Shown here piece after piece: positions 4,691 to 62,860 of a stretch of DNA of 64,000 nt. This stretch comes from Nereocystis luetkeana (taxonomy: Eukaryota; Sar; Phaeophyceae; Laminariales; Laminariaceae). The first letter of the stretch is position 1. Each line of letters opens with the position of its first letter. The notes beneath the pieces are model-generated. The model worked only from the letters and a program-made list of their open reading frames with translations. It searched no databases and had not been told where the DNA came from. The translations under genes were made by a program, and so were the position numbers. Location of the stretch: assembly GCA_031213475.1 (NCBI GenBank), contig JARUPZ010000025.1:3546077-3610076 (forward strand), read 5' to 3'.

Positions 4691-4837
4691 TAGTAATATT
4701 ATATAGTTACCTGGTATGAAATAGTACGTACTGCTGTATAGTACTACCTGGTACCTCTGGTATTAATTATGGTGCATAGGGAATGATGGCTTGGGGCTTG
4801 GGCCACAAAAAGAGGTCAGCTTTTCTAGCCCTTTCCA

Positions 4838-4929
4838 GGAAGGACTGCAGTGACGTTTTGGGGACAAACTACTGAAGAGTTTTTGGGTGGTTTGTCGTTT
4901 GTCCCCAAAACGGGGCTGCAGTCCTTTAG
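4838..4929. mobile_element. PAL-B palindromic element
   Basis: Two inverted arms (GGACTGCAG...TTTTGGGGACAAAC and GTTTGTCCCCAAAACGGGG...CTGCAGTCC) surround a short centre. The element is about 92 bp. It belongs to the PAL-B family, described in full at 62384-62480. Confidence 0.7.
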
Positions 4930-5195
4930 CGACTGATGACTTCATTCATTATGAATAGAAATTAGAAAACAACAAGCAGCTGAGAGATTGCAAAGTTGAG
5001 TGTCGACCGATCGGTTGAACTCACAGCTGATGAGGTGCTTGTGAATAATAGTTTTTTTAGGGGCGAAAAGGCTGTGAGGTCCAGGATTTGATCGAAACTT
5101 AAATTTTCAAGCTGTGTGTGAGAGTGTGCAGTGATACTTCGATCGCGCGTACCATGTACCAGGTACGTGTTGCTTTATTTGGCCTCACGGAGGGT

Positions 5196-5515
5196 TGTTG
5201 TTGTTGTTGTTGTTGTTCTCACATTAACTCACAATACAATGCAGTCCGTGGTCGCAGGACAGGCTCCAATAACTCTGGAGTGGAAGAAATACCTCAAGTA
5301 AAACAGAGGCAAAAACAAAAAACAAGCATACGCACTCCACCACTGCGGACACCAGGGAAGCAAAAAGGAGACTATTCATAGCAGACAAAAACCTAAAAAA
5401 GAAGATGAAGCGAAGCAAAAAAACAAAGCAAAACAAAAACAGCAGAAGCAGATAGCAAAACGCAAAAAAAGGCAAAACGGACCATACTAATTTTAACAAA
5501 GACACAAAGAGGTAA
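5196..5515 (-). mobile_element. LINE-F3 3' end, 5'-truncated, with (AAC)n tail
   Basis: This is closely similar to 10170-10590, where the same non-coding sequence follows the RT-distal coding region of a LINE. On the minus strand the copy ends in about eight AAC repeats (the TTG run at 5196-5218). A 3' microsatellite tail of this kind is typical of non-LTR elements that do not use poly(A). Only the A-rich 3' UTR is present. Confidence 0.6.
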
Positions 5516-5841
5516 AAAAAAAAAAAAAAAAAGGAACAAAAAAGTAGGGGTAAACAGCAGCAGTGTATACTCTGTTTACAAGCGGTGGTGTTTTTGTTAT
5601 TTTTTCCTTTTTTCCAGCTCGTTCTTTTTCAAGTGTTGGCCACACCCCTCGCCTGCGGGGGAGATTGTTTCTTCTAGTTTTTGCTTTCATTTTTTTTTTT
5701 GCTTTGTTCTCTTTCGATTTCTGATTTGTCTACCTTGCCTTGTTTTTACTTGCTCTTTGATTGTTTCCGTTCGTTTCTCTATTTCATAGAATGTGTATGT
5801 CGTGTATCTAGTATTTTATTATTCATTTATATATTTATTTA

Positions 5842-6174
5842 TTTCTCATCCCATTCATTATCTTCGCACACCTTCTTCTCTCGCTCTCCTTCCCACTCGT
5901 AACTCAGATCCGGGGTCACATAGCAGGCTCTTATCCCCCCTTCCCGCTACGGTACGTGCCTTCATTTTTATCGCGAGAAGATTTCAGCCTTTTCTTCCCT
6001 CGTCGACTCGCATCCAATTGTCAATTGTCTATACCCACGCTGCAAGGCGCTCTCAACAATTGAATCCCTTTTTTTATTTTTGCAAATAGAGTCAAAGTCC
6101 GATCCACCTGGGGCTCGAACCCATGACTCAAGCAAGAAGAATTCGAGGTTAACCACTTGAACCACCGGGGCGAT
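5842..6174 (-). mobile_element. SINE-1, tRNA-derived
   Basis: On the minus strand there is a box A-like TGGTTCAAGTGG and a box B GGGTTCGAGCC, followed by a body of about 250 bp. The body contains GCAAGGCGCTCTC, TCGACGAGGGAAG and ends at GAATGGGATGAG. Full-length relatives are at 12042-12372 (minus) and 17520-17855 (plus). The element lies within the LINE-F1 3' UTR copy 5560-6365. Confidence 0.75.
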
Positions 6175-6215
6175 GATGACATGGCATTGCATTGCTCACT
6201 GCTGTGCTTACTGCA

Positions 6216-6238
6216 TACCAGGTACCAGGTACCTGGTA
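6216..6238. other. Triple TA-CCWGG-TA micro-insertion
   Basis: TA, CCAGG, TA, CCAGG, TA, CCTGG, TA are stacked in a row. The same place in the LINE-F1 copy at 17500-17508 has a single TACCTGGTA, and the copy near 11990 has none. Each event appears to insert CCWGG and duplicate TA. Confidence 0.7.
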
Positions 6239-6481
6239 CGTAGCAACGTAGTATCTCTGTGGCGTAGCTTTGTGACCACAGAACTTGTATCTCTTCTAGG
6301 ATTGAAGAATCGGAACGGACACTGGTTGTGCTTGATGTCGACGGGTAGAAAGAACACACACACAAGTTTTAGTCCGTAGAGTGCGCATGTGCGTACTCGT
6401 ACGAGTGTGGGCTACGTACGAGTTTTTTTTTTTTTTTTCATTCTTGAAGCTTCGTAAAGTAACTTTCTTGCGTAAAAAGAG

Positions 6482-6497
6482 TACCAGGTACCAGGTA
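6482..6497. other. Double TA-CCAGG-TA micro-insertion
   Basis: Two tandem CCAGG units are separated and flanked by TA. No empty-site comparator was found for this locus. Confidence 0.55.
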
Positions 6498-6989
6498 ACT
6501 TTTGTTTATTTTTATAAGTAACCCCTGGGCAAAAATTATTAAGACCGTTTATAATACAAACCCATATCGAACCGCGTCTTAAATTTCCGGCCGTGATGCC
6601 AAGCGTTTCTAAACTCTGGGTTCGGAAGGCACTACGATATTTACGTGTCAGCACCGCTGAGTTGTTGTGCTGATGTATATAGAGCCTGACTACCGCTCTA
6701 GATGCTATTAAGGTGCTTCCGGCCAGGCGATTCTCTGATGTATGTAGAGCCTGGGTACCGCTGTAGAGGCTAGGTGTTTCCCGCCAAGCGATTCTCGCAG
6801 CTGCTGCACGTTTCTTCCACTACCTTACTCGGAGAACGGCTGCTCACCTGCGGTTCCCCACTATAGAGGTCTCTCTGCCGGGGCGCCGTCGCGTGATGGC
6901 CCAATGTTGGGCTCCCCCGGCTTTCCGCTTGATCGACCTAGGGGGAAAGGAGGAAAGGGCACTCGAGTAAGAAATCAAGTGGTGGTCGT

Positions 6990-7070
6990 CGCTGTTGCTG
7001 CTGCTGTTGTTGTTGTTGTTGTTGTTGTTGTTGCTGTTGCTGTTGCTGTTGCTGTTGTTGTTGTCGTCGT
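6990..7070. repeat. Trinucleotide repeat (GTT/GCT)n
   Basis: About 75 bp of alternating GTT and GCT triplets. It creates leucine, valine or threonine/asparagine runs in several frames, with no supporting domain in any of them. Confidence 0.85.
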
Positions 7071-7429
7071 TGGGCCAGCGAGCTCGCGCAGGTGGTGGTG
7101 ATGAGCTCGTTCTAGCGGGCTGGAACGAGAGGTGCAACGCACCGACCGCACTAGCCAGGCTGCTCGGCACTCCCGGCGTACGGCCTCGGGTTTCGAATTG
7201 TACCCCGAGGTACGAATACGTGAATGAATACGTAATACGAACAAAGAATATCTACTGGAATATCTAATACTGGAATACCAGGTACAACCAGTATACCAGG
7301 TATTGACTTTTGTGAGTGTTATTATTCATAGTGGTCCCCAGTAGTAATCATTGCAATTAATTTCATCATTTATTTTCAAACCAATCGATATACCTATTTA
7401 ATACGCATGTCCTATATATAACCATTTGA

Positions 7430-7512
7430 GGTTTGCAGTCGAGTCTCGTTTTTTTAGGAACCAGTCAAATTGAGTAATTCGTCCGAAAAGCGGGACTGCA
7501 GTCCTAGAAGGG
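7430..7512. mobile_element. PAL-B element, diverged
   Basis: The left arm is weak (TTTGCAGTC...CTCGTTTTT). The right arm is clear (AAAAGCGGGACTGCAGTCCT). It is probably an old copy. Confidence 0.45.
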
Positions 7513-7578
7513 CAAACAAGGAATTACTACTGTACATCTATTACGCAGCTTGCAAAGTTGAGTACCTGGTATCAACTA

Positions 7579-7683
7579 TTACGGGGGACCATAGTAAATA
7601 GGACCAAATATCGATAGTAAAAAAAACAAAATATATTATTTTTCAAATTTAACGTAGGTTCTATTTTATATGGTCCCCCGTAA
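7579..7683. mobile_element. PAL-A palindromic MITE
   Basis: The left end TTACGGGGGACCATAG and right end TATGGTCCCCCGTAA form terminal inverted repeats. TA flanks both sides, consistent with a TA target duplication. The interior is A/T-rich with no ORF. Confidence 0.85.
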
Positions 7684-7954
7684 TATATGGTCGGTCGAAC
7701 TTCATAGCTGACGTATCTCATAATTTTATAATTGTATAAAAATAAAAATTAATAGAATACGCGCGAACGGCTCATCATACAACATGTGAACTCAATTCGT
7801 AAGTAGTTCCTGTAGAAACACTACTACCTGGTACTTCGTAATTTGTGTACATCCCCTATCATCCTAAAAGCGAAATATAGAACAGGCGTATTTAAGCAGC
7901 TCGCCAAAAGTTGAGTATCATCTAATGAATCAGTCGAACTCACATGGAGAACCT

Positions 7955-8150
7955 GGCTATGCTGCTCGTTGCATTGCCCACACTGCTGTGCTTATTACCG
8001 CACACGTGGCAACGTAGTATCTCTGTGGCGTAGCTTTGTGACCACAGAATTTGTATCTCTTCTGGGATTGAAGAATCGGCACGGACGGACGCTGGTTGTC
8101 CTGCATGTCGACGGGTAGAAAGAACGGTTTAATGTGAAGAACATACACAC
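7955..8150 (+). mobile_element. LINE-F1 3'-end fragment
   Basis: The terminal block of LINE-F1 is present: GCATTGCCCACACTG, then GTGGCGTAGCTTTGTG, ending in GGTTTAATGTGAAGAAC and ACACACAC. It is adjacent to another partial copy of the upstream UTR at 8165-8560. Confidence 0.65.
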
Positions 8151-8164
8151 ACCCTCGTACCGCA

Positions 8165-8560
8165 CAGTCGAACTAACAGGGAGAACCTGGCTATGCTGCT
8201 CCTATTAAAATATCACAAACTAACTGCTGCCGCTACCTGGAGGGTGCTTTGTGCTTTGGTTTGCCTGTTATTTTCCCTTCGTTCGTTGCCCTACAGTCTG
8301 TTTACAAGTATTAATAGTGGCGTTTTCTTTTTTTCTTTTTTTCCAGCTCGTACTTTTTTAGTGTCTGCCACATCGCCTGCGGGGGGGCACAACATTTTGT
8401 TTCTTCTATTTTTTATTTTTCTCCTCTTCTCTTTCAATAATTTGTCTTCTTCATGTCTTCATTTTTGTTTTTTTTCCTTTCGTTTTTCTATAGGATAAAA
8501 TGTGTTATGTCGGGCCAGTCGTATCCGGTACGATGACATGGCATTGCATTGCCCACTACT
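8165..8560 (+). mobile_element. LINE-F1 3' UTR fragment (pyrimidine-rich part)
   Basis: The segment begins with AACCTGGCTATGCTGCTC, runs through CTGCCGCTACCTGGAG and a long T/C-rich stretch, and ends at GATGACATGGCATTGC. This copy carries TATTAATA at 8309-8316, where the related copy near 18244 has a bare TA. Confidence 0.65.
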
Positions 8561-8579
8561 GATGTAGTACGCCGGATCT

Positions 8580-9470
8580 TATGCAAAAAAAAAATGGGTG
8601 ATTATGTGACTGTTTACTTTACGGAGGCTTCGGGGTATCTGGTCCCATATCTGATCAGATTTTATCAAAATCACGTCTTATGGGGCCTGTTTGGTGGGAA
8701 AAAGGTTCCTCCGAGATTTTATCACTCCTGAAATTCCATGAAATAAATGTTTTTTTTTGGCAGCCTTTTCTGATCAACTCTGAAAGTAATAAATTTTGCC
8801 TTTGTACGAGACCTCGGTGGCATTATACAATTTTGTTTAGGTTATAGACTGGGTTCATGACGGGTCACGGCGCTACATGCTTGGTTACGCTTGTACACAG
8901 CTGGGCTCCAGCACTTGTGCATCGACCACCACGGAGAGGGAGGGCATCAGTACCTTGGCCACCATCGTGTCCCTTGCGGCCGCCCAACTGCAGCAGCTCT
9001 AGGCAAAACAACTTTGGAAACGAATAGGACGAGACTACAGCAGCAGTATCAAAACAATCTAACGGTATTTTTCTGACTACGACCGCCGAAAGTAGCTCAT
9101 GCTCCGCGAAGGCGAGAGCTCCTTGCTGGTCCAGCGACTAGCAAACCCCTTACGCAGCTCCCCAGGGGGTTCCACATTCCGCTGCTCCCTTCGAGGAGCT
9201 GTTGGTGAAGGTTGATCGCCCAACCCGGCGTAAGCGACTCTCGTGCGTGTCGTGGTCCACGTGGAGTTCAAAATGTCGGTTGTGTTCTGTTTTTTTAGTT
9301 CTCCCATGAAATAAAACCAAAATCACGATAAGACGGCACATGACGCACCGACCTGGTGTGGATTTTTGCCGTAGGAAAATCCGACTTCCTGCCTTTTTCA
9401 ATCACTCAAAACAAATTGCGTAAGACCCAGCCGAAGTCGTGGCAACATTTTTTATTTTTTTTCATCATCA
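8580..9470. other. No recognised feature
   Basis: About 890 bp in which I find no gene, RNA or known repeat. A few ORFs of 60-83 codons are present but carry no motif and no codon pattern that would single them out. Confidence 0.5.
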
Positions 9471-9480
9471 CTTCCACTTT

Positions 9481-10004: not shown

Positions 10005-10075
10005 ATATTATTATGCTTGCCTTCCGACAATATACCAGGTAGCGTGGATGCCATTCCAATAACCACCAAATATCC
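10005..10075. repeat. Short repeat, second copy at 35225-35285
   Basis: The block from ATGCTTGCCTTC to GATGCCATTCCAATA occurs at both places. Here it carries TACCAGGTA at 10033-10041, where the other copy has a simple TA at 35256-35257. Confidence 0.65.
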
Positions 10076-11529: not shown

Positions 11530-11850
11530 TCTATCTATGTTTCTACTCGTACCACAAACTGCTGCCGTTTCCTGGAGGGGGTTGTGTGCTTTGTGCTTCG
11601 GTTGCCTGTTATTTTCACTTGGTTCTTATTTTTACTCTACTATTTATAAGTAGTGGTGGTGTTTTGGTTTCCTCATTTTTTTCAAGTAGTGCCTGCCACA
11701 TCCCCTGCGGGGAGGCACGATCGTCGGTTTTTTCTTTTTTATACGAGTATATTCGTATATACCTGGTATATATATATATTTCGATTTGTTTTCGTTGTTT
11801 TTATTCTTATTTGCTTTCTTTGGTGTTCTATCTACCATAGACTGTGTGTG
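11530..11850 (+). mobile_element. LINE-F1 3' UTR fragment
   Basis: This is the pyrimidine-rich UTR block, from ACCACAAACTGCTGCCG to TTCTATCTACCATAGA. It includes the conserved CTGCGGGGAGGCACGA segment and an AT-rich expansion with TACCTGGTA at 11760-11768. Confidence 0.6.
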
Positions 11851-12745
11851 TGTTCTTCACATTAAACCGTTCTTTCTACCCGTCGACATCCAGCACAACC
11901 AGTGTCCGTGCCGATTCTCCAATCCTAGAAGAGATACAAGTTATGTGGTCACAAAGCTACGCCACAGAGATACTACGTTGCCTGCCACGTGTGCAGTAGG
12001 CACCGCTGTGGGCAATGCAAAGCCATGTCATCATACTCGCTTCGCTCATCCCATTCATTATCTTCGCACACCTTCTTCTCTCTCTCCTTCCCACTCGTAA
12101 CTCAGATCCGGGGTCACATAGCAGGCTCTTCTACCCCCTTCCCGCTACGGTGCGTGCTATCATTTTTATCGCGAGAAGATTTCAGCCTTTTCTTCCCTCG
12201 TCGACTCGCATCGAATTGTGCCTACCCATGCTGCAAGGCGCTCTCAACAATTGAATCATTTTTTACTTTATTTTTGCAAATAAAGTCAAAGTCCGGCCCA
12301 CCTGGGGCTCGAACCCAGGACTCAAACACAAGCAGAATTCGAGGTTAACCACTTGAACCACCGGGGCGACCGGCATACTAGATACGACAGGCACGACATA
12401 CACAATCTATGAAATAGTGAAACAATCAAAGAGAAAACAAAAACAAAGTAGACAAATCGAAAGAGACAAAGAAAAAAAAAAAGCAAAAACTAGGAGAAAC
12501 AATCTGCCGTGCCCCCCCCCCGCAGGCGAGGCGGCCAACACTTGAAAAAGAACGAGCTGGAAAAAAGAAAAAAAATAACTTAAACACCACTGCCTGTAAC
12601 AGAGTGAGACAAAGAACCAAGGAAAAAAAAAACAAAAGGAAAATAACGAAGGGGAAATAACAGGCAGACCAAAGCCCAAAGCACCTTCCAGGTGGCGGCA
12701 GCAGTTTGTGGTACGGGTAGCATAGCCAGGTTCTCCCTACTACTG
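11850..12745 (-). mobile_element. LINE-F1 3'-end copy, minus strand, split by SINE-1
   Basis: In reverse orientation it has the terminal block (11850-12040), an inserted SINE-1 (12042-12372) and the pyrimidine-rich block (12375-12745). The flanks of the SINE read AGTATG on both sides, a candidate 6-bp target duplication. Confidence 0.65.
12042..12372 (-). mobile_element. SINE-1, tRNA-derived
   Basis: Full-length copy with box B GGGTTCGAGCC near 12300-12320 and the same body and 3' end as 5842-6174. It is inserted in a LINE-F1 3' UTR. Confidence 0.75.
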
Positions 12746-13005: not shown

Positions 13006-16000
13006 GTGGCCTGCTCGCTTGAAGGACCGCGTGGGGTGGTGGTGATGTTTTTTCTTCTTAACCCCGACGCCGAGGAGTTCATCCCTGAGGCGGGACGGGT
13101 ACATCACCACAGCAGAGAGCGCTACGTGGGCAGCCGGTGGAGTGGAGAGGCTGGCCACAGCGTGGGTATGCATGCACGACAGGAAGGATGGGAGTGTCGG
13201 GGTGGGTTGGGACGGCTGCACCCAGCCAACGGAAACCAAGGTGCGTACCGGGCTACGAAACGGAGAGCCACTTTCGCCATAGAGAAGAAAAAGAAACAAA
13301 AGAAGAAAAAAAGGAGGCGGGGACGAGCCTCACGTCGCCTGGCAGAGAAAGCAGCACGCGAGGCTCATAAGAGACAGAAGGAGGCACTTGTGGCGGTAGC
13401 GACCTACAATGTGCGCACCCTGGCTGTGAAGGGGAAGAACGGGTACGGACATGACGAGCGTGTACTGGCGAAGGGACGGCAACTCGGCTGTGACTTCATT
13501 GGCCTGCAGGAAACTCGGAGGTCCGGCAGCACGACGTTCCGTGCGGCAGGGTATCGTGTTTTCTGTTCAGGACAGGAAACAACAGCCACCAGGCAAGGGC
13601 TGTACGGAGTAAGCCTAGCTGTCAAGGAATCGTTGTGCAGTAAGTCTGTGTATACTCATCAGTTCGTTGACGAGCGGCTAATGTCTATGCGCTTTGAGCT
13701 GGCTGGCAAATGCGAGGCAGTCAATTTCGTCGTGGCGTATGCTCCAACTGATTGTACCAAGGACGCCGAACTGAAACGTATTTTCTGGCAGACGCTGGAG
13801 TACTTGGTGTAAAAACTCCCGACGAAAGAGTGTCTGTTTGTACTGATGGATGCTAACGCGCGAACTGGACAGAGGAAGGAAGGGTGCGGTGATGATGAAA
13901 ACAGAGTGCTGGGAGCGTATGGACGTGATGTTCGTAACGATAATGGCAGACGGCTCCTGTCGTTCGCCACCAATAATTGCAAGTTAGCTCTCACCAACAC
14001 GTTTTTCAGCACGCGCAAGGGTGGGATATCGCATACTCACAACGGCACCGGCCCGAATGACCGTAAGCGGATCGACTACATCCTAACCCGCCAAGTCCAT
14101 CGACCTAGAGTACAAGATGCGAAAGTCGTCCCACAGCCTCCTGCCCCAGCTAAGGCTGACTCAGACCACAGCATCTTGTATAATATCAAAGTCCGACTCG
14201 GTGGTCATTTTGCGCCCAACAGACAAATACGTAGACCTACAAAACGCCGAGAGTTCGACAGGCAGCTTTTTATGTCCGATGGAAAGTGTCGTGAACGAGT
14301 AGTCTCCAGGATCAACTCCACTCTCAACCAGCCTATCCAACCCCGTAATACGTCTGGTATGGTTGAGTTTTTCACTACGGCTGTTATTGATGCGGTCGAA
14401 AAAGAGGTACCACCCCCTGCACGTCGCCACCGCAGACATGGATGGTGTGAGTCTGCCGAAACCTTGGCCGCATTCATACCAGCATGGACAGCGAGGGAGG
14501 ATGCACGACAGTTCTTGCGTGTCCACCCCCGGGACAGAACCGCGTGGAAGACCCTGAGATCTGCGTGTGCGAACCTGCAGAAGGTGATTGCCGCAGGACT
14601 GCATGCGTACTTCGAAGCGTACCTTGCCGAAACCGAACGACTCCTAGCGAACAACGACCAGAGAGGCTTTTACAAGCACCTTAAGAGTACGGTAGGATTG
14701 GAAGAGACCAAAGCGAGGAACGAACAGTTCATTAGGGACGAGGATGGCACGATCTTACGGGATAAGGTGCGAATTCGTGAACGATGGGCGGGGTTTTACC
14801 ACAAGCTCTTGAACACGAAGTCGCCGAAACTCGATCCCACGATCATCGACCTCTTGCCACCGCGACCGCCTAAACTGTCGCTTGAAGATGAACCATCCAT
14901 AGACGAGATGACAGAAGCACTTAAGGGGATGTCAAATTGGAAAGCTGTCGGGCCAGATGGTCTCCCGGTCGAACTCCTAAAAATCGACCACCCGGCATTC
15001 GCCCAGCGCTTTCACAATATCCTTGTCAATGTTTGGTTAACAGGAGAAGTCCCTCAGCAATGGAAAGATGCGATCATCAAGGTCCTTCACAAAAAGAAGG
15101 ATCGAACTGACTGCAACAACTATAGAGGGGTTTCGCTTGTTGCCCACGCAGGCAAAGTGTTGTTGAAAATCATCGCGTCCCGCCTCAGCAACTACTGCGA
15201 GACCGAGGAACTACTCCCCGAGGAACAGTGCGGCTTCCGCCCCGCACGATCAACGATTGATATGTTGTTCGTCGTGCGCCGGCTGCAAGAGCTCGGACGA
15301 CAGAGGAAAATCCCCTTATACGTGTGCTTCATCGATCTGCAGAAAGCGTACGACTCTGTCGACCGAGAGCTGTTGTTATGGAAGGTACTCACAAGCTTTG
15401 GCGTACCAACCAAGATTAGATGCTGAGAATTATCCGTAATTTCCGCGATGGCATGCGGGCTCGCGTGCGCACTGATGACGGCGAGCTCTCGGAATGGTTT
15501 GATGTCACGCAGGGGCTGCGGCAAGGCTGTGTACTATCACCGTTGCTGTTCAACGTGTTCTTCGCTGCTGCGTTACACGTCGTACTAGTACGCTTCAGCC
15601 AAGACGAAGTCATTGTAGGAGATTTGGTCCAACTCTGTGAAGCTGGAGAAGTTCGAACAGGGAAGGAGGAGCCATTGGCGTGCGTGCGAAGGTCTGTATG
15701 GGGCATGTTGTACGCCGATGATGCAGAAATTGTCTCGAAGTCGGCTGAAGGCCTCGCGAAATGATGGCAGTCATCGTGACCGTCTTCGAAGCAGCAGGCC
15801 TCACGGTGTCGGAAAAGAAGACTGAGACAATGGTCCTACAAACACCAGACCAGACAACCCTCGCACCACCGCTCGTCATCGAAGCGGCAGGCCAGAGGTA
15901 TAAGCAGACGACCCAGTTCTTATACCTAGGCGGCGTTATCCACGAAAACGCTGCGCTCTCGCTCGAAATCGACCGACGGATCCGCCTCATGCGAGCATGC

Positions 16001-16720
16001 CTCAAACGGTTCGGCCCGGAGTTGTATGATAGGACGGCCGCCCCCCTTAGCCTTAAAGTCCGAATGCTGAAGGCCGAGGTGATTCAGACCCTGATGTACG
16101 GGTGTGTGACGTGGACCCTCAGAGCGGAACACTTTGCCGAGCTTCGAACGGCTCACCACCAAGTCCTGTTGCGAGTCATTGCCTCCCACCGCCGACTTCG
16201 TACTGACCATGCCACCCTCTCGTACGCGAAGGCCCTCAAGATGACACGTTGCGAGAGCATCGAAACGACCATTTGTAAACGGCGGCTCTTCTTTGCGGGT
16301 GGCGTGGCACGGCAAAGCAAGAAGCGATTACCCAGTCGGGTAATGTTCGGGACGATAGCTGGTGGGGAGAACCCGAGACCAGGCGGACAGTGTAAGACTT
16401 GGTATAGATGCATAGTCGAAGACCTTAGGGAGTTCCGAGCCACCGAAGGGTCAACGGAAGTTACCCCCTTGGTGTTTGGAGTTGAGACCGCGTTGTGGTC
16501 CACTGCAGCCAAAAAGGCGGGGAAGTGGTACCGGGGGATCCTTGAAGCAGCCGAACGGTTCATGGTGAGGTGGCACGAGGCTGAGGCTAAGATGAGTAGG
16601 CAGCGCCACGCATCCGCCGTGGATGGTGTCCAAGGGAACGGGGATGGATGGGGCAACAGGAGAAGTGGCAGAAAGCCCGACCAAGGGAATGCGGAGAGGG
16701 GGGGGGAACAGGAGGGGTAG
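13006..16720 (+). pseudogene. LINE-F1 endonuclease-reverse transcriptase ORF, three disablements
   Basis: A lysine-rich N-terminus (to about 13390) is followed by an endonuclease/exonuclease/phosphatase domain. It starts at VATYNVRTL, with QETRRSG at about 13510, DANAR at 13847, RIDYIL at 14068 and SDHSI at 14160. Next come a linker and an RVT_1 reverse transcriptase with [15 protein letters not shown] at about 15330, [15 protein letters not shown] at about 15510 and the catalytic YADD at about 15711. A C-terminal region ends at 16720. Breaks are an in-frame TAA at 13810-13812, a frameshift near 15410-15420 and a 1-bp frameshift near 15755-15762. With these removed the product would be about 1,230 residues. 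The endonuclease nicks the target and the RT copies the element RNA. The domain order resembles RTE-like elements, but I cannot assign the clade. Confidence 0.9.
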
Positions 16721-17519
16721 AAGGGAAACGGCGGTAAACGAAAGTAGGAAGGGGATGGCAGGGTAGCAAGGCACCAAGTCGACTAGGAAGAAGAACATGA
16801 CCATACTACTAGTGCTACCAACTGGTGCAGCTGGTTCGAACGTGGTCTTCCCTTGTCTTCTCTTTTTGTTTTGTTTTTTTCTTTTTTGCGTTGACTCTCC
16901 GTGATTTTCATTTTATTTTATTTTATTCTCTTCCTTTTTTTATTGATAAGCCGAACTGAAGGAGCCGTGTGGTGTGGTTGGATGACGAACCTGCTCTGCT
17001 CGTTTCGTATTGTCTGACGCCAAGGGGCTGGGCATAGTTGACGAAGGCAGGGCGGAGACGGCAGTCTGGGTAGCAAGGTACCAGGCGGATTAGCAGGGAG
17101 AACCTGGCTATACTACTCGTACCACAAACTGCTGCCGCCACCTGGAATGTGTTTTGGGCTTTGGTCTGCCTGTTAGTTTCCCTTTGTTATTTTTCCTTTG
17201 TTTTTTTTTTCCTTGGTTGTTCGTCTTGCTTTGTTTACAAGCAATGGTGCTTTTGATATTTTTTTCTCTTCTTTCAGCTCGTTCTTTTTCAAGTGTTGGC
17301 CACCTCGCCTGCGGGGGGGGGGGCACGACAGATTGTTTCTCTTAGTTTTTGCTTTCTCTTCTTTTTGCTTTTTGTCTTTCGATTTGTCTACGATTTTTGT
17401 TTTTGTTTCCTCTTTGATTGTTTCCTTTCGTTCCTCTATTTCATAGAAAGTAGTATGATGGCATGGCATTGCATTTTGCCCACTGCTGTGCTTACTGCAT
17501 ACCTGGTACGTGGCAACGT

Positions 17520-17855
17520 AATGCCGGTCGCCCCGGTGGTTCAAGTGGTTAACCTCGAATTCTACTTGTTTGAGTCGTGGGTTCGAGCCCCAGGTGGGTC
17601 GGACTTTGACTTTATTTGCGAAAATAAAAATAAAAAAGGATTCAATTGTTGAGAGCGCCTTGCAGCGTGGGTAGGCACAATTCGATGCGAGTCGACGAGG
17701 GACGAAAAGGCTGAAATCTTCTCACGATAAAAATGAAGGCACGTACCGTAGCGGGAAGGGGGGAGAAGGGCCTGCTATGTGACCCCGGATCTGAGTTACG
17801 AGTTGGAAGGAGAGAGAGAAGAAGATGGGCGAAGATAATAAATGGGATGAGCAAA
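17520..17855 (+). mobile_element. SINE-1, tRNA-derived, plus strand
   Basis: The head begins at GCCCCGGTGGTTCAAG. Box A is TGGTTCAAGTGG, box B is GGGTTCGAGCC at about 17579, and the body ends at AAATGGGATGAG. It sits in the LINE-F1 3' UTR at a different position from the two other SINE-1 insertions. It is the best-oriented reference copy. Confidence 0.8.
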
Positions 17856-18000
17856 AGAAGTATCTCTGTGGCGTAGCTTTGTGACCACAGAACTTGTATT
17901 TCTTCTAGTATTGGAGAATCGGCACGGACACTGGTTGTTGTGCTGGATGTCGACGGGTAGAAAGGACGGTTTAATGTGGAGAACACACACGTACGTGTCA

Positions 18001-19055
18001 TTATACTAGATACGACAGGCACGGCATACACATTCTAGGAAATAGAGAAACGAAAGGAAACAATAAACAATCAGAGAGAAAAAATAAGCAAAGAAGACAG
18101 AGAAGAAGAAGAGAAAAAAAAAAAAATTAAAGAAAAAATAGACGAAACAATCTGTCGTCCCCCCCCCCCCCCTCAGGCGAGGTGGCCAACGCTTCATAAA
18201 GAACAAGCTGGGAAAAAAAGAAACAAATAGCAAAAAACACCACTACTTGTAAACAGACTAAGACAAAAAACCAAGGAAAAAAATATCAAAGGGAAAACAA
18301 CAGGTAGACCAAAGCCCAAAGCGCCCTCCAGGTGGCGGCAGCAGTTTGTGGTACGAGTAGTATAGCCAGGTTATCTCTACTAATCCGCCTGGTACCTTGC
18401 TACCCAGACTGCCGTCTCCACCCTGCTTTCGTCAACTATGCCCAGCCCCTTGGCGTCAGACAATACGAAACGAGCAGAGCAGATTCGTCATCCAACCACG
18501 CCACACGACTCCTTCGATATGGCTTGTCAATCACATACTCCGTACTATATATATAGAGGAATGAAATGAAAATCACGGAGAATCAGCGCAAGAAAGAAAA
18601 AAACAAAACAAAAAGGGAAGACAAGGGGAGACCACGTTCGAACCAGCTGCACCAGTTGGTGGCACTATTAATAGTAGCATGGTCATGTTCTACTTCATAT
18701 AATAGACGGCCTGGTGCCTTGCTACCCTGTCTGCCATCCCCTTCCTACTTTCGTCTACCGCAGTTTCCCTTCTACTCCTGCCCCCCCCCCCCTCTCCGCA
18801 TTCCCTTGGTCGGGTTTTCTGCCACTTCTCCTCCCCCCCATTCCCTTGGGCACCATCCACAGCGGATGCGTGGCGCTGCCTATACTCATCTCAGCCTCAG
18901 CCTCGTCCCACCTCACCATGAACCGTTCGGCTGCTTCAAGGATCCCCCGGTACCACTTCCCCGCCTTTTCGGTTGCAGTGGACCACAACGCGGTCTCAAC
19001 TCCAAACACCGAGGGGGCGGCTTCCGTTGACCCTTCGGTGGAGTTGGGCACACAC
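18001..19055 (-). mobile_element. LINE-F1 3' part, inverted relative to 16440-17465
   Basis: In reverse orientation this carries the end of the LINE ORF (STEAAPSVFGVETALWS at about 19000-19040), the A/T-rich UTR and the pyrimidine-rich UTR. It pairs with 16440-17465 as an inverted repeat of about 1 kb arms around a 540-bp spacer. It carries TATTAATA at 18666-18673, where the plus copy has TA at 16810. Confidence 0.75.
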
Positions 19056-19680: not shown

Positions 19681-19689
19681 TTAACCAAA

Positions 19690-29706: not shown

Positions 29707-30117
29707 CATTAAAATAACGCAAAAAGCCAGAAAGCCAATGACACCACGTATGCTTTTATGCATACCTACCGCGAGTTACCTAACAAAATTCGGCATTCAA
29801 AAAGAATGCTCGGAAGGGAGGGGTGGGAAGGAACAATCCCCGCCGGCAAAAAAAACAAAACGCTTGAGAAACACACAATAAACTACTGAGGCCTTCCTGT
29901 GCAATGTACCTGGTATGGTTTTTGTGGAACTTCAACAATTTTTCGACTAAGGGAGTATGGTGATCCGGACCCTGATTTAACGACAGAAACAGCACCAATG
30001 TTGGTGTTCTCAGTCGTCCACGTACCAGGTGTGAGCGAGTGGCCGCCCAGCAGTATGGGTAGAATCGCGTCCGTCTGCGCTCGCGCCGTGCCTCTCCTCG
30101 CATATTGTGCTGACATG

Positions 30118-31885: not shown

Positions 31886-31887
31886 TG

Positions 31888-34525: not shown

Positions 34526-34560
34526 CAAAACGCTAAAATCAAGGGTTCGAAAGGCGACTA

Positions 34561-34680
34561 TTATTGGGGACCATATTAAATAGGATCTACGGTACACACC
34601 AAAACCTATACTTCGAAGTATGTTTCGCTATTTTTACTGGCAAGATTCGGCCCTATTTACCCTAGTAGTCCCCCGTAATA
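34561..34680. mobile_element. PAL-A MITE
   Basis: TTATTGGGGACCATATT to CCTAGTAGTCCCCCGTAA with TA flanks. The longest and one of the more diverged copies. Confidence 0.75.
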
Positions 34681-35317
34681 TATTAATGGGAGTCATTAAT
34701 GTATCTCCTAGTCGTCTCGTTGTTTCCCCACAGCTCGCTGCGGTCGTGGCAGCCCTGTAAGACTCCCTAAGCTGCACCTCGGAGCATTTTAAGATGAGTC
34801 TACTGTAAGACGTGCGAAGATTCAACGTAGAGAGTAAGACGGGTCTCTCTTCGAAAAACGGATCAAGTCAATTGTCAAAGGCATCCGTGGGTTCTCTTCG
34901 TTTCGTGTATCGCGCTGCCGCTCGACTGTCCATCGCCCGTTCGCCGCTCGGCAATACGTCGGCGGCCATAGATAGGCCGCCTCCGTCGATCGCCCGCCGT
35001 CGCTCGCTACGTCGCTCGCTACTTTAAACTCGCCGCCGTCGCCACCTCTGTTGTCCAAAGTATCACGCCTCCAGCTCACCAGGTACAACTACAACTGAAC
35101 TGCAACAACAACAGTTTAAAGAGTAGTCGTTCCTGAGCAACTGGAACGAATCATGATTCGTGAACATTTGTGACAAGATATCGCGATACGAGACATTTCA
35201 TGTCTTCTTGTTGTACCAGGTATATCATTATTAGTATGCTTGCCTTCTGACAAAATAGCGTAGATGCCATTCCAATACAAACCGAATGTATATCATTCGA
35301 ACTACTCTCATGTTTCT

Positions 35318-35432
35318 ATTACGGGGGACCATAGTTAACAGGACCTGTGGTATACATAAAAACCTACCAGTATAAATTTAACCATTTGTACTAACAATAT
35401 TATGTCCTATTAACTATGATCCCCCCGTAATA
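35318..35432. mobile_element. PAL-A MITE
   Basis: Intact ends with TA flanks on both sides. The interior contains TACCAGTA at 35365-35372, where most copies have TA. Confidence 0.85.
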
Positions 35433-36429: not shown

Positions 36430-37520
36430 CTGTCTGAATCGAACAAAACACTACTACTCTTATACAGTACCTGGTAGTCAACAAGCCCATGGATAGATGA
36501 CGGCCTTCCACAGCCGTTGTCTTGCCAGCGCGCGGGCCGGCGGGTGTAAGCGTGCTGAGGACCCCATCCTCTCTGCCAAAAAAGTATCGGAAGTCACATA
36601 TACGTCTCATGATTTCCTGCATTCTGCAGCGTCACATTTAGTTGTCTCCTCAAGACGGGAGGTACAGTAGTATATCCGGCATGAGGCGATACAAAACCCG
36701 CACAGCAGTACGTCGTATTAGGCTCATTCTTATCGGAGAGCGTTTTTTTCCCATAATTTCCAAAGTTTGGAAATAATAGGAGATATGTTTCAATATACGG
36801 AGGCGTTCTGTCACTATTCGTGAAATTCTCCAGATCCAAAAATATCAAGTTCGTTAACATTCCAATATTTGGGGGGAAAAAACACACACACACAGGAAAA
36901 TATGGAAGATTGAAAAATTGCGCGAAACAAAAATATCGAAAATTTGGAGAAAAAAAGCTCTCCGATAAGAATGACCCTAAAACGGTACTCGCGCTATCGA
37001 CGTCAATAGCGCCAAGAAAAAAAACGGCGGAAATCCTCGGTCTTACAGCTAGCCGTTGTTTTCATTTCTTCCAACTTATTTTTGTACACGTGTACGTATG
37101 TATTATAAATCCAGTCTTCTGACCAGCCACGAGGAGATAAGTCTCACGGGCTTTTACGGGCGAGACAGCCTCATCATGGGTGGTCAAGACTTTCACTTGG
37201 CGCGCACACGTCTCGGCGAAAACTGGGGCCGAGAGGCCGGGGTGCGGCTCGCCGCGTGTCTGATATTTGTTTTCAGCGCCGCGCGCCATTTTTTTACCTC
37301 GAGCTCCTCGAAAAAAACTATGCGGCCTGCTATACCTTCTCGCGGTTGTGCGGAAAGAAACGTACTGGGGTTTGCCTCGCCGCCCAGGCGAAAATGCTTT
37401 CGAGTGTTTTTTTCGCCGCGGGCGACACTGTAGGGGAGGGGGAGGGGGGGAGGCGGGTCGTGTTCGTTGTCGAAGGCGAATGTTGACGCGTGCTGCGGTT
37501 TGGGCAGCACCTACAGTACG
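36430..37520. other. No recognised feature
   Basis: Contains a duplicated phrase (TCTCCGATAAGAATGA at about 36958 and its reverse complement at about 36723) forming a loose inverted pair about 230 bp apart. ORFs of about 100 codons show no motif. Confidence 0.4.
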
Positions 37521-37529: not shown

Positions 37530-37641
37530 TTACGGGGGGCCATAGTTAACAGGACCAAATATTGTTAGTAAAAATGGATAAACATATACTGGTAGGTTTT
37601 TATGTATACCATAGGTCCTGATAACTATGGCCCCCCGTAAT
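37530..37641. mobile_element. PAL-A MITE
   Basis: TTACGGGGGGCCATAG to CTATGGCCCCCCGTAA. The interior has TACTGGTA at 37587-37594, the reverse complement of the insertion in the copy at 35318 and at the same position. Confidence 0.85.
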
Positions 37642-38038
37642 AGTAAGTACGTCCAATTCTAAGGCTCTACGTTTGAGGAGCTCCATCCTGTATACTGCTG
37701 TAGTACTATTAGTAAGTCAAAACTGAATTTTGGCAAAATGTGCTGGGCTACCCCGAAGACAATCCCTTTCTCTATTACATACAGTAGGTAGGCGTAAGTA
37801 ACGCCTACAACACAAAAGAGATAGATAGTGGGTGCTCGGTGACCCGACGAGCTCCTGCTGTAGCGTAAAACCGGTTGCCCCCTTAGCACCGTTCGACACG
37901 CGCCTCTTCAGCCGGCCACGAAGCAAACTGCAGCACCCAAAATATTTTACTTATTTTTCGGAGGTAAATTTGCCTGGAGCCATGCCGAATATTCAACAAA
38001 TTCCCAGGAAATTCCTGGGACCATGTGTGTGTTTAAAA

Positions 38039-56161
<18,123 letters not shown>

Positions 56162-56454
56162 GTCGGGAAGGCCGGAGAGGGCCGGGGCTCCTGATCCTGG
56201 CGGCCCCTGGGGGGCACGGAGCGCCTCCAACCCCGCTTCCGCGGTCGGGGAGCCCGCCCGGCGGACGCTTTTAGCCCTATACAGCCGTGGGTGGGGTGCC
56301 AAAACATAAGACGGAGCGTGGAAACAAAAAAGACGACGCGAAAAATGAAAAAAAAAAACACACACACACAATCAAAAAGTACCTGGTATTAATAGCTACG
56401 TAGCGACCAAGAGAAAAAAACAGGGTATGAAACAAAAAAAAAACTGCACGCCTC

Positions 56455-56770
56455 GGACAGATAATCTACAGATCATCTACAGATCATCTACAGATCATCT
56501 TCAGACCATTCCCACTCGTATCATCCACCTGGTAGATATTTCTAGCCAAGATCTATTTCCGCGCTCGTATGATCTAGATGATGTCGCCGGGTGGGAACCC
56601 GTGTGATCTGTACAAGGGGAATAAGATCTACAGTAGTATCACATGTTTCCTGGGTTGGATCTGTGCTGTACAGATCCTGCAGGACCTCTAAATGCGGCAG
56701 GTGGTGAACTAGATATATTATCTACAGTAGATCATGATCTATCTGACCTGATTCGGCCAAGGCGTGAAAT
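56455..56770. repeat. AGATC-rich dispersed repeat
   Basis: GATCATCTACA repeats (56460-56510), then the CCTGGGTTGGATCTG, CAGATCCTGCAGG and GTGGTGAACTAGAT block shared with 35740, 43100 and 63480. Confidence 0.65.
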
Positions 56771-58064: not shown

Positions 58065-58470
58065 AACAAATAATGATTTATAGATAGATCATCTACAGAT
58101 AGGTAATCTACAGATAGATCATCTGCAGATAGATCATCCACACATAAATCATATACAGCTATACTTCGTATCATCTACAGATAGATCATCTACAGATAGA
58201 TAATCTACAGATAGATATTCTACAGATAGATCATCTGCAGATAGATCATTACACATAAATCATATACAGCTATACTTCGTATCGTCTACAGATAGATCAT
58301 CTACAGATAGATCATCTACAGATATAGATCATCTACAGATAGATCATCTGCAGATAGATCGTCTACATATAGATCATCTACAGATAGAAAATCTACAGAA
58401 CTTTATATATATATATATATATATATATCTACAGGTAGATCATCTACAGATAGAGCATGATCTAGATCAT
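58065..58470 (+). repeat. ATAGATCATCTACAG tandem repeat
   Basis: About 22 units of 14-17 bp (ATAGATCATCTACAG and variants), with a larger duplicated block that includes ACACATAAATCATATACAGC (58140 and 58250). An (AT)n tract sits at 58404-58428. Confidence 0.9.
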
Positions 58471-58720
58471 CTAGCAGTTCCTCACCTGCCGTGTGAGAGG
58501 TTGCGCAGGATTTGCCTTATAGGGAAAATCCAAACGTGTGCTAACTATGGCAATTGTATACGGGTCCCACGCCGCAACATGAGCTAGATACATCCTTCAG
58601 ATCAGGGACCTATCTGATATATCTTCCCTGAAAGGTCTAGATCCGTAGATGATCTGTAGATGATCTGCAGGTCATTTACCCATCCGAGGTGCGTGAGTGT
58701 GAAACGTGACAGATGTCGAT
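58470..58720. repeat. AGATC-rich dispersed repeat (flank of tandem array)
   Basis: GTTCCTCACCTGCCGTG, GATTTGCC and GATCTGTAGATGATCTG correspond to 36040-36400. Confidence 0.55.
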
Positions 58721-59098
58721 ACAATGCTGTGTGAAAATCGTAGCGAAACTTTCGCGACGATACGATGAGGTAGACCTAACTTTTTACGAGCTTCGGCACT
58801 CAATAGCTCCGTAAACTTCCCACATTAAGAGCCGTGACGTGGCTGACCCTAAATATACGTATATACACATATTAGTATATGCACATATATAAGATAAGTC
58901 GCCAACTACTTCTTAGCTGGCTAGGTATTACAGTTACTTCGCGTGCGATCTTTGCGGTTTTTTTTTTCGGAAGTCTGCGTTTTTGTATCTGACAGGAGCG
59001 CACCTGTGGTGGCTCGGGTTGGGAAAAAAAATAAAAAACAAAATAAAAAACAAACCGACAATTTCGTGAGTTTGGCTCACTTCGCCACACCGACGTAG

Positions 59099-59415
59099 CA
59101 CATGGCGGCTTGATAGGTGGTCCGCGAGCCTATCAAGATCAATTTCATGGGTTCGAGTATCACCGAGTGCGTGCTCCTAGGGACTTACTTTTTCTTGCAT
59201 ACAAAAAAAATGATTAGCGGAAAGCGCGAAAGCGTGCGCTAGCTGCAAGCAATGAAAATCGAGTAGCAGTGGGATTGCTGAACCTTACGAAAGACAAAAA
59301 ATAAAGGCACGTGCCCAAGGGGGGGAGAAGGGTCAACACCTGTGACCAGACCACGGCATGTCCAAAAGATCGCTGAGGGCAAAAACTCCTACGAGTTAGG
59401 CTGGAAATTAAGTGC
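59099..59415 (+). mobile_element. SINE-2, tRNA-derived
   Basis: GGCGGCTTGATAGGTGG (box A region) and ATGGGTTCGAGTATC (box B) are followed by the same body as 9481-9800 and end at CTACGAGTTAGGCTGG. Confidence 0.7.
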
Positions 59416-59724
59416 TTCAAATATATATATATTATATATACTGCTATATTTTATATATAAATATTATATATATATACCTGGTATATATTAATTACTAGCC
59501 GTGTTGCTGTTGTTGTTGCTGTTGGTGTTGCTGTTATCATATTACCTCATGTCCAATTTATCGATAGAAGTCTAGCGAATTTACGCCCCCTACAAAACTG
59601 TTTTGTAACTGCGCACCACAAATGGGCTGATTACTGGGCAGAAAAAAAATCGACGCGACTCGATCGGGGAAGTAAATGCTGAATTGTTCCCGCGAAAAAA
59701 ATCAAGGCATGTACCTGCTATGGC

Positions 59725-60030
59725 GGGGGGGGGGGGGGGAGGGGGGGGGGAGGGGGGGGGGAGGGGGGGGGGAGGGGGGGGGGAGGGGGGGGGGCGGCGG
59801 CTCGATAGGAGAGATGTACTCGATCTCATGCATGGCAGTAGGCGTATGAACATGGACCCTTGCATCCTACAATGCCGAAATGCACCATGCCGGGTTTTCC
59901 CCGACCAGGCAACAGACATTGCTTGCACCAATGCGCGAAGCGAAACGTGAGGTGTTGGGGCGAGTCGCGTGAAGGGTGAGCTGCATCCTACTAAGAACCG
60001 CTTGTGAGGTGGATTTGCGTATGGATGACA
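59725..60030 (-). mobile_element. CT element (SINE-like), long C tail
   Basis: G tracts (59725-59793), then CTCGATAGGAGAGATG, CATGCATGGCAGTAGG and GCATCCTACTAAGAACC in reverse. Its C tail is the longest seen, about 70 bp with single A interruptions (on the + strand). Confidence 0.65.
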
Positions 60031-60042
60031 GCTTAAATGAGT

Positions 60043-60122
60043 AGTGGGGGGGGGGGGGGGGGGGGGGGCGCTACGTGACCCCTGGTTTGAATCACTACTA
60101 GGAGGGAGGGGGGGGGGGGGGG
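60043..60122 (+). repeat. G tracts
   Basis: Two G runs (60043-60069 and 60108-60122) around a 35-bp spacer. Confidence 0.85.
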
Positions 60123-60559
60123 TAAGAAGAGCGAGAGCAATAAATGGGATGGGGAAGAAAAAAGGCCCAGTTGAGGAGCTGCATCACACAGGAATAGCTC
60201 GGCCAGAAAGCGCTACCTCTGTCCGCGGCAAGTGAAACAAAAAGCAACAAAAATATTTTTTTGGGGGGGGGTTCTTCCCGCCGCGCCAGAACCAACAAAA
60301 AATGGTTGACAAACGATCGAACAACGAAGTGCCGTGATTACAGCGAAGAAGAGCGGGGGTCGAAACGAACAGGAAACCGTCATCAGAGACGGGAAAAAAA
60401 AAAGAAAAAAAAAAAAAAGAAAAAAGGGAGAGACCCCAAAGAATACATGAGACACGACCACAAAAGGAAAGAAACTGAGAAACAAAAAAAATACCAGATG
60501 GCCATGGGACCCGTCAACAGCAGTATGCTGCAAACCGACTGGCTTCATGTCCAGGGCCC

Positions 60560-60922
60560 GCGGGGAATCGCCATAACGACAACCTCCATAACCATACCCA
60601 TAACCATCACTACCCCTATCAGTTATCCGTTATCACCAGCACCATCACAATCACAACCATGCACAGCCTCCACCACCGCCACCCCCCACCGCTGCTACCT
60701 CCAGCACCATCGCCGACATCACCGACCCCACTGTACCCAACACTCTCGCCGACATCACCGACATCACCGCCACCCCCTCCACTACCATCACCACCCCTAC
60801 AACACTACCCCCACCACCTCCACCTCGACCTTCCCCTCCATCTCTGCCAACACCATCGCTACAACACTGCCACCAACAACACCATCACCACCACCACCAC
60901 CACCACCACCACCACCACCACT
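60560..60922 (+). repeat. CCA-rich low-complexity DNA ending in (CCA)n
   Basis: CAT/CAC/CCA-rich, ending in about 12 CCA units, interrupted at 60923 by PAL-A and continuing at 61114. Confidence 0.8.
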
Positions 60923-61113
60923 ATTACGGGCGACCATAGTTAATAGGACCAAATATTGGTAGTAAAAATGGGTAATATATAGGCTTTCATGTATACCATA
61001 GGTCCTATTAACTACCTGGCGTAGTCAATAGGACCAAATACTGTTGGTAAAAATGGGTAATATATAGGCTTTCTTATATAACATAGGTCCTATTAACTAT
61101 GGCCCCCCGTAAT
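60923..61113. mobile_element. Tandem pair of PAL-A elements in a (CCA)n array
   Basis: Two PAL-A copies in the same orientation share a compressed junction (TATTAACTACCTGGCGTAG at about 61009). The outer ends TTACGGGCGACCATAG and CTATGGCCCCCCGTAA are flanked by TA, and the (ACC)n sequence resumes on the right. The target was ACCACTACCACC-like. Confidence 0.8.
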
Positions 61114-61434
61114 ACCACCACCACCAAAACCACCAACACCAACACCAACACCTCAAACACCAACATCACCAACACCTCCACCACAAACAACAACAACAAC
61201 AACCTTCACCACCAACCGCACCAACAACAACCTCACCTTCCAACGTTGGCAACCCTAGCCTCCCGAGCCTTACGTCGCTTTTCTCTCATCTCCGCTCTAG
61301 CAATCGCGCGCTCTTCGTGTGATAATTTACTGCCACCGCTGCTACCGCCACCGCCGATGATGCCAGTGTTTGGGAGGGGAGAGAGAGGGTGGGGGGGGAG
61401 AGGAGCGGGGGAGGGAAGGGGGGGGGAGGGGGGG

Positions 61435-61500
61435 GCGTACTAATTTGTTGCTTGCCTCAAGTCATTTGACCATTGACCACGCATCCCTTTCGAGGCGCGG
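61435..61500 (-). mobile_element. LINE-F4 3'-terminal fragment
   Basis: GTACTAATTTGTTGCTTGCC to TTTCGAGGCG between G tracts. Confidence 0.7.
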
Positions 61501-61504
61501 GGGG

Positions 61505-61940
61505 GGCGGCGGGTATTCATTGTCATGCAATGGCCGCAGTCGTATGTCCATAGATTCTTGCATCCCTGCAATGCCGGGACGGAGCACGTCGGGTTTTCAC
61601 CGACCAGGCCGACATTGCTTGCATGCACCAAGCCCGAAGCGAAACGTGAGGTGTCTGTCCGGCGAGTCGCACGAAGGATGAGTTGCATCCTCTCTCTACT
61701 AGGAACCGCTTTTCGAGGTGGGATTTCTTGCACTGGACGACAGGTTCGATTCAAGTGTTCGCTCGTTTTCTGGTGTGGTCACTTCAAGCGAAATCGATGA
61801 GCTATACACCATGAAACTGCCTCGTGGGTGCCTCACCGTATACACGCTGCCTGGTGCGTGGGACGACAATGCCCCCTGTGACAGAGTTGAGGTTCTCCAC
61901 CCCGCACAAATGATCGAGCTCGACCTCCAACCATGGTGAT
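61505..61940 (-). mobile_element. CT element (SINE-like), longest copy
   Basis: From TATTCATTGTCATGC through GTAGTCGTATGTCC-like sequence, GGATGAGTTGCATCC and CTCGTGGGTGCCTCACC to AAATGATCGAGCTCGACC. About 435 bp, which sets the minimum family length. No ORF and no clear pol III boxes. Confidence 0.65.
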
Positions 61941-62383
61941 CGCCAACGTAAATATACATATATACGTTGGCTGTCGAGCTCACGCAGTGATTCGTGTGTT
62001 TTACGCCGTCGTTGCCCACCGGCAACCGCCAACCCAACCTCTCCACAACATACCAGGTGCCAGCCATGTACATACATCGCACCTGGTGTACACACACATA
62101 CCTGGTGCATGATATAAAGTATAAATGAAGCATAGCGCCAGGCACATTCTACGCATTTTCCTCGAGTGTCTTTAGGGTCGATCGTAACGAGGAGTGATTT
62201 TTCAGTTTTTTTCGGTATTTCCCCGAAATTTCGGCATTTTCCTATTAGGAAAAAACGGAGAAATACCGAAATTTCGTGAAAATACTGAAATAAACCTAAA
62301 AAAACAGTCCTCGTTAAGATCGACCCTTAGAACCCGGACTACAATCTAGGAGATGTGTACCACATGGACGCAGCATGGCACCA

Positions 62384-62480
62384 TTAACCCTTTTAGAACC
62401 GCAGTCCCGTTTTGGGGACAAACCAGTCTAATTTCAAGTAGTTTGTCCCCAAAACGGGACTGCGGTTCTAAAGGGGTTAA
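62384..62480. mobile_element. PAL-B palindromic element (best copy)
   Basis: TTAACCCTTTTAGAACCGCA with GTCCCGTTTTGGGGAC, a centre of about 20 bp, then the near-perfect inverse GTCCCCAAAACGGGAC and TGCGGTTCTAAAGGGGTTAA. The arms are 40 bp with two or three mismatches, so the whole element can fold into one hairpin. Possible TTAA or TA target, not provable here. Confidence 0.85.
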
Positions 62481-62747
62481 CGCAGTACCTCAGTCGGCTC
62501 AAAGAAACCACCCCAGGTGATACTTATTTCGCGTGTTGTTGTTTTTTTATCACCCAGGGTGATACTTATTTCGCGTGTTGTTTCTTTATCACCCAGGGTA
62601 GTTTCCTCCTTGGTCGGGTGGTGCGTAACGAATGTCGATGACTGCTGTGGGGGCATGCTTTATTATTCGAGTCTTGTTTTGTTGACCACCGGGGGGGGAG
62701 ATTTCTTGTGTTGGGGGGGGGGGGGGGATAAGGAGGGGGGTGATAGT

Positions 62748-62860
62748 ATTACGGGGGGCCATAGTTAACAGGACCCATGGTATACACAAAAACCTACCAG
62801 GTATATATTTACCTATTTTTACGAACAATATTTGGTGTTATTTACCATGGTCCCCCGTAC
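62748..62860. mobile_element. PAL-A MITE
   Basis: TTACGGGGGGCCATAG to CCATGGTCCCCCGTAC, TA flanks. TACCAGGTA at 62795-62803 replaces an internal TA. Confidence 0.85.

Follow-up and report, generated by a model that had tools for sequence, protein, structure and literature searches.

Sleeping Beauty leaves the excision scar TAC(A/T)GTA, in which the A/T center is expected from one mismatch between the annealed tails. A comparable nine-letter word, TACCWGGTA (W, A or T), is dispersed through the genome of the brown alga Nereocystis luetkeana and is described here from a stretch of 64,000 nucleotides (the window; assembly GCA_031213475.1, contig JARUPZ010000025.1, positions 3,546,077 to 3,610,076, forward strand) and from the rest of the assembly. 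For related systems, the portions of the papers available to us give scars of 2 to 4 bp for Tc1/mariner elements and 0 to 3 bp for the zebrafish element ZB (PMC7913693), 0 to 4 bp for the pogo-type element Passer (PMC9976928), and 1 to 4 bp for the plant mariner Osmar5 (PMC1925063). Stowaway scars combine 2 to 4 bp from one end with 1 to 2 bp from the other, so that as many as 6 bp can lie between the TAs, and insertion of a new element beside an older scar has been described as well (same portion of PMC1925063); the available portion of a further paper gives no scar lengths (PMC3660474). In Ectocarpus, Mariner-Tc1 elements number almost 12,000 copies, mostly nonautonomous, and in the main text of that report, as available, the words footprint and MITE (miniature inverted-repeat transposable element) are absent (PMC12477816). 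The titles and abstract openings among the literature matches listed contained no report of such scars in bulk. TACCWGGTA resembles the Sleeping Beauty and Tc1-mariner footprint in its TA on both sides, its A/T center, and a short, near-palindromic core that would be a remnant of element ends. We consider it probable, if well short of certain, that TACCWGGTA arose when a DNA transposon of the cut-and-paste type, having inserted at TA and duplicated the TA, was excised and left its end bases behind as a CCWGG scar.

The window contained 25 exact copies of TACCWGGTA (12 A centered and 13 T centered) and 1 copy centered on S (G or C). These 25 units occupied 22 places, because the array at 6216 holds three tandem units and that at 6482 holds two, with the TAs shared. 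A strand-symmetrized order-3 Markov formula gave an expectation of 0.57; the first-pass annotation had put the copies at roughly two dozen against about 0.5 expected. In sets of 100 simulated windows, the mean number was 0.47 at order 3 (maximum, 3) and 4.1 at order 5 (maximum, 10); the Markov models behind the expected counts were trained on the same sequence that they test, and the order-5 model had partly learned TACCWGGTA itself. CCWGG occurred 166 times in the window and had TA on both sides in 25 cases, with 5 cases for the runner-up pair of flanks. The motif had been placed between 4708 and 62803; it is indeed repeated throughout that interval, and its first copy lies earlier, at 3571. 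Across the whole assembly (465,085,209 bases in 1,987 contigs), 182,395 copies were counted versus 1,744 of the reversed pattern, a density of one per 2.55 kb. The excess of TACCWGGTA is confirmed as real and as reaching far beyond the window, and the comparison with a Markov background that had been suggested for it places the motif far above expectation.

Finer analyses were made on a sample of 282,054 bases (0.06% of the genome), consisting of the window, a 10-kb stretch of every contig from C1 to C20, and the motif-bearing loci L010 to L017, leaving out L014 and L015 (which overlap L013) and L001 to L009. Removal of a 1,223-base overlap between L016 and L017 reduced the sample to 280,831 bases, with 113 sites either way. 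Loci L010 to L017 were picked because they carry the motif; the 20 stretches of 10 kb, taken without such selection, have 77 sites, or one per 2.6 kb. The sites formed 105 usable arrays, of which 98 had a single unit, 6 had two, and 1 had three. In a screen for 8- to 12-mers that occur in diverse surroundings, the top 8-, 9-, and 10-mers were the motif or its extensions, which were also among the top 11- and 12-mers. Of all words of the form TA-N5-TA (N, any base), the motif had 113 copies, and the next that was not made up of A and T only was TAGGWCCTA (18 copies), which is a word of PAL-A, a palindromic MITE resident in this genome. W-centered sites outnumbered S-centered sites by 113 to 12, which bears out the earlier claim of an A/T center. 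Among the words of 2 to 5 nt that resident MITEs might leave as scars, the greatest excesses were those of TACTATTA (56 versus 12 expected) and TAACCCTA (19 versus 3.3), compared with 113 versus 2.7 for the motif. The Sleeping Beauty word TAC(A/T)GTA was present 102 times against 44 expected, a 2.3-fold excess.

Comparison of filled and empty paralogues supports TACCWGGTA as a micro-insertion of 7 bp at TA, as the first-pass annotation had proposed. Among the 104 arrays with enough flank for the test, the sample offered a paralogue for 10, and for 7 of them at least one paralogue lacked exactly 7 bp or a multiple of 7 bp; among 1,021 control TA-N5-TA sites, 245 had a paralogue, with such a difference at 7 of the 245. 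An earlier run, in which the L016/L017 overlap was kept and 800 of 1,024 controls were used, gave 7 of 10 for the motif versus 6 of 193. Counted by pairs, 56 of 84 paralogue pairs at motif loci differed by 7 bp; because 51 of the 56 came from three PAL-A loci, loci rather than pairs are the fair unit. At position 3808 of locus L021, the exact difference was found in just one of four pairs. In a catalogue of indels between paralogues, TA plus CCWGG and one other 7-mer led the 7-bp words with 7 entries each; the printed cases of the other 7-mer share one repeat context, and at least one CCWGG place was counted twice.

Several individual comparisons carry this result (all coordinates are of the window, plus strand). 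The TACCAGGTA insertion at 10033 to 10041 has one paralogue, near 35256, which is 7 bp shorter and retains an empty TA, exactly as annotated. The TACCTGGTA insertion at 40891 to 40899 lies in an arm of PAL-A (site B), where 17 of 18 aligned paralogues are exactly 7 bp shorter, and the TACCAGGTA insertion at 62795 to 62803 lies at PAL-A site A, where 17 of 25 are; shorter copies had been cited for both. A further insertion cited in PAL-A (41254 to 41262) is a decayed form at site A that reads TACCTGGTG, one base from the motif. The TACCAGGTA copy at 3571 to 3579, within a repeat resembling a long interspersed nuclear element (LINE), has three paralogues, all of which are a net 7 bp shorter through a split alignment gap that does not keep the TA. 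The triple array CCAGG-CCAGG-CCTGG at 6216 to 6238, with shared TAs, has five paralogues, two of them 21 bp shorter and three 15 or 17 bp shorter; the homologous place at 17500 to 17508 holds one TACCTGGTA unit. In the pairing of that unit with a bare site near 11990, the empty copy has CA instead of TA, with other small gaps close by.

PAL-A itself offered two positions for comparison across 33 aligned copies. At site A, 26 copies had no insert, 2 had TACCAGGTA, 1 had a decayed A-centered form, 1 had a decayed T-centered form, 2 (35316 to 35429 and 37530 to 37643) had the 6-bp CCAG version TACCAGTA, and 1 had a different 10-bp palindrome. Site B was filled solely in the copy at 40807 (1 of 33). 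Because the PAL-A sequence varies among the filled copies, these data speak for separate insertions at a favored TA, although inheritance within a subfamily is possible. In the PAL-A copy at 34558 to 34678, TACTTCGAAGTA stands where other copies have CCWGG.

A palindromic preference for the target, of the kind known for DNA transposases, is common to the arrays (W at -7, A at -6, and R, i.e., A or G, at -1). Relative to other TAs, their flanks deviated most at -6 (A; chi-square, 86, with 3 df as for all positions) and -7 (A or T; 70), followed by -1 (A or G, with T avoided; 49), -2 (T; 27), and -3 (A; 20). Of 210 flanks, 109 had A at -6 and 13 had T at -1. A second TA was present at -7 in 56 of the 210 flanks versus 15.7 expected, and TA pairs spaced by 7 bp are not unusual in general. 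The five bases between the site and this second TA are mostly unlike CCWGG, and the flanks with TA at -7 are thus not merely older, decayed units. Independent insertion with this preference, which was learned from the same arrays, predicted 4.7 to 9.5 adjacent pairs, and 8 were seen. For the pair words TACCAGGTACCAGGTA, TACCAGGTACCTGGTA, and TACCTGGTACCAGGTA, independent insertion predicts equal numbers of same-center and mixed-center pairs. Among 15 distinct adjacent pairs from the genome loci and the sample, 10 were same-center and 5 were mixed, numbers that are not clearly unequal; the mixed pairs argue against tandem duplication as their sole source.

One product dominates, and alternative joints are few. 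The minor products were TACCAGTA (30 observed versus 13.7 expected), TACAGGTA (16 versus 8.7), and TACCGGTA (14 versus 4.2), with rarer TACCAGGGTA (8 versus 0.7) and TACCATGGTA (3 versus 0.5); TACCWGGCCWGGTA was absent from the sample. Relatives of the motif with one mismatch were in excess by about 64 beside 110 intact copies, which would correspond to a divergence of roughly 6% if all copies were of one age.

Under the excision reading, we infer the former presence of a transposon that inserted at TA with duplication of the TA and whose excision left bases of its ends between both TAs. In the likeliest version, both ends would start with CCAGG or CCTGG and each end would be cut on the outer strand, five bases into the element. 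The 5-nt tails so produced would pair at four of five positions, the host would ligate them, and the central A:A or T:T mismatch would be resolved to A or T. Alternatively, ends of the form CCA...TGG could leave an uneven remnant, three bases of one end and two of the opposite end, with no 5-nt stagger. The letters of the product would be the same, and the likeliest of the two is a 5-nt overhang joined across one mismatch; the 3+2 version explains the uniformity less well, because joins of 2+2 (TACCGGTA) and 3+3 (TACCATGGTA) are few. With assumed rates, the number of scars would not be implausible, as about 1,000 copies with one excision per 100,000 generations would produce it in about 18 million generations.

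Compared with described systems, the remnant read as a single annealed tail is 5 nt, longer than those given for Tc1/mariner and Passer in the available text, and it is present in 182,395 copies. As 5 bp between the TAs, it is above the single-tail range of 2 to 4 bp and inside the Stowaway totals (2 to 4 plus 1 to 2 bp) reported there. Whereas the Stowaway and Osmar5 scars described in those passages vary from case to case, one product dominates the genome here. In being palindromic, the TA target preference is also like that of Tc1-mariner elements. By analogy, the motif would work like a Tc1/mariner-type scar; membership in Tc1/mariner is not claimed, because no donor was found in the 282 kb and no transposase with the one profile scored (PF13358), and the remnant length fits only if the join was unequal. 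PAL-A and a 77-bp GAACCGCAGT element, both Stowaway-like MITEs, occur in the same genome and are also flanked by TA, whereas the CCWGG insertion lacks internal sequence and any inverted repeat beyond itself. At TA plus 5 bp, it is also shorter than a MITE, which runs to tens or hundreds of bases and has internal sequence.

A number of observations weigh against excision. No CCWGG-bounded element was recognized in the 282 kb, and none of 4,645 repeat alignments had both edges at CCWGG. The DDE_3 profile (PF13358) found no match in this genome, with 30 candidates scored. Scars would far outnumber surviving donors. The portions of the literature available describe remnants of 1 to 4 or 2 to 4 bp, less than 5 nt per end, and mixed scars, which are less uniform than the product here. 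Three of the 10 loci with a paralogue lacked an exact 7-bp difference (the difference was 8 bp at one, and the other two are in AT-rich simple sequence), and three PAL-A copies supplied most of the exact pairs. By our estimate, a donor of several thousand copies might show in this sample, and one of a few hundred copies would not.

Of the repeat alignments, 32 had the left edge and 3 had the right edge at CCWGG, and the 13 distinct cases printed included PAL-A and other repeats. Inverted TACCWGG...CCWGGTA pairs within 6 kb, matching inside to within 3 of 11 bases, numbered 11 and were mostly tandem arrays or neighbors. The earlier statement that the window has no element with CCAGG...CCTGG ends stands insofar as no element boundary was found, although one inverted pair exists (17079 to 18394). 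This pair was rejected as an element since its similarity continues past both TAs into longer inverted LINE arms (16942 to 17221 and 18252 to 18531). The pairs at 55332 to 56534 and at 1682 to 2538 of locus L034 match at 8 of 11 bases and were ascribed to chance without a formal test. TACCTGG-15-CCAGGTA, at a single place shared by L016 and L017, is probably two decayed neighboring insertions.

The failure to find a donor in 282 kb would be expected if no long element had ever been present and an enzyme added TACCWGG directly at TA. Such an enzyme might be a transposase or recombinase that joins a very small duplex derived from element ends or a repair activity that copies a fixed template. 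The very uniform product, the enormous copy number (182,395), and the fact that the edge of an existing insertion is favored as a target also speak for such direct micro-insertion. Ordinary transposition already covers the target preference and the W center, however, and the absence of a donor was weakly tested in a sample of this size. We know of no enzyme that acts in this way, and we hold direct addition to be unlikely. It is likewise improbable that an enzyme has repeatedly inserted a fixed seven-base TACCWGG at TA, free of any donor and with its own palindromic target preference; if one has, this insertion would be the shortest of the self-repeating insertions in eukaryotic genomes and among the most numerous. 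Had there never been a donor, a new way to insert DNA would be implied. Very short CCWGG-ended palindromic MITEs could instead have collapsed internally, again and again, through hairpin deletion at replication and not through transposase excision. Short palindromic MITEs are present, and a second dispersed word, CTATTAATA, resembles joined outer ends of PAL-A, which means that end-joined remnants may exist for another family as well. Collapse should give varied lengths, yet products beyond the 9-mer are few and no longer intermediates were recognized in the 282 kb; we give this origin little credence.

Other readings dispense with insertion. As a palindromic and very frequent word, TACCWGGTA is like some protein-binding sites and might be kept or spread by selection, but, set against paralogues, its copies are insertions of 7 bp, in unrelated repeats, and forms with one mismatch clearly exceed expectation, as under decay, with about 6% divergence. 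A functional binding site is, in our judgment, very unlikely. That the word belongs to a longer conserved repeat, which the first-pass annotation had named as the finding that would speak against insertion at TA, or to a tandem repeat or an assembly artifact, is the least credible of the alternatives and close to dismissible. Several copies do share the same PAL-A position and may have been inherited within a subfamily; flanks are nevertheless diverse, for 94 of 104 arrays the sample contains no paralogue, single units make up 98 of the 105 arrays of the sample, and the genome holds 182,395 copies. Should the sites be excision scars, one genome would preserve about 180,000 excisions of one transposon type in a form that can be counted, and excision rate, target choice, and end-joining outcome could be measured historically from them; if each came from a single annealed 5-nt tail, the transposase stagger would be wider than that described for related elements in the text available. 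On either reading, excision or direct insertion, the genome carries a dispersed 7-bp insertion, of frame-shifting size, at an average of one per 2.55 kb.

The remaining copies in the window are spread along its length. On the plus strand, TACCAGGTA insertions occur at 5157 to 5165, 7276 to 7284, 7294 to 7302, 35214 to 35222, and 55332 to 55340, and a double array, CCAGG-CCAGG, is at 6482 to 6497. Insertions of TACCTGGTA are located at 4708 to 4716, 4745 to 4753, 7825 to 7833, 11760 to 11768, 29907 to 29915, 36468 to 36476, 53932 to 53940, and 56380 to 56388, with two more adjoining a PAL-A copy (7563 to 7571) and within an AT tract (59475 to 59483). The PAL-A copy that hosts the insertion at 62795 extends from 62746 to 62859 (plus strand) and is one of 18 in the window.

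TA-flanked inverted-repeat families, including PAL-A and the 77-bp element, are present in the genome sample. The 77-bp MITE lies at 62394 to 62470 with ends GAACCGCAGTCCCGTT, and more copies are found in loci L022 and L023. The word CTATTAATA (core, TATTAATA) had 68 sites in the sample versus 6.5 expected, with diverse flanks; its sites in the window include 1665, 8309, 10591, 18666, 20540, 36006, 40133, 40505, 43169, and 56387, among others. Joining the outer ends of PAL-A (CTATTA...TAATAG) across a shared TA yields CTATTAATAG, and CTATTAATA may for this reason be a scar of PAL-A itself or its empty target. In viral contigs, the PAL-A core pattern had no matches, and the tandem motif had a raw count of nine stretches. 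Other repeats in the window are a (TAG)n array of about 96 units at 1656 to 1944 and a tandem repeat with a 29-bp unit in 68.7 copies at 51688 to 53677. Reading frames of LINE type span 13006 to 16720, with an endonuclease-like match at 13006 to 13812 and a reverse transcriptase match at 13846 to 15426; for the latter, the brown alga Ascophyllum nodosum (45% identity) was the sole named organism in the best 120 of 912 matches.

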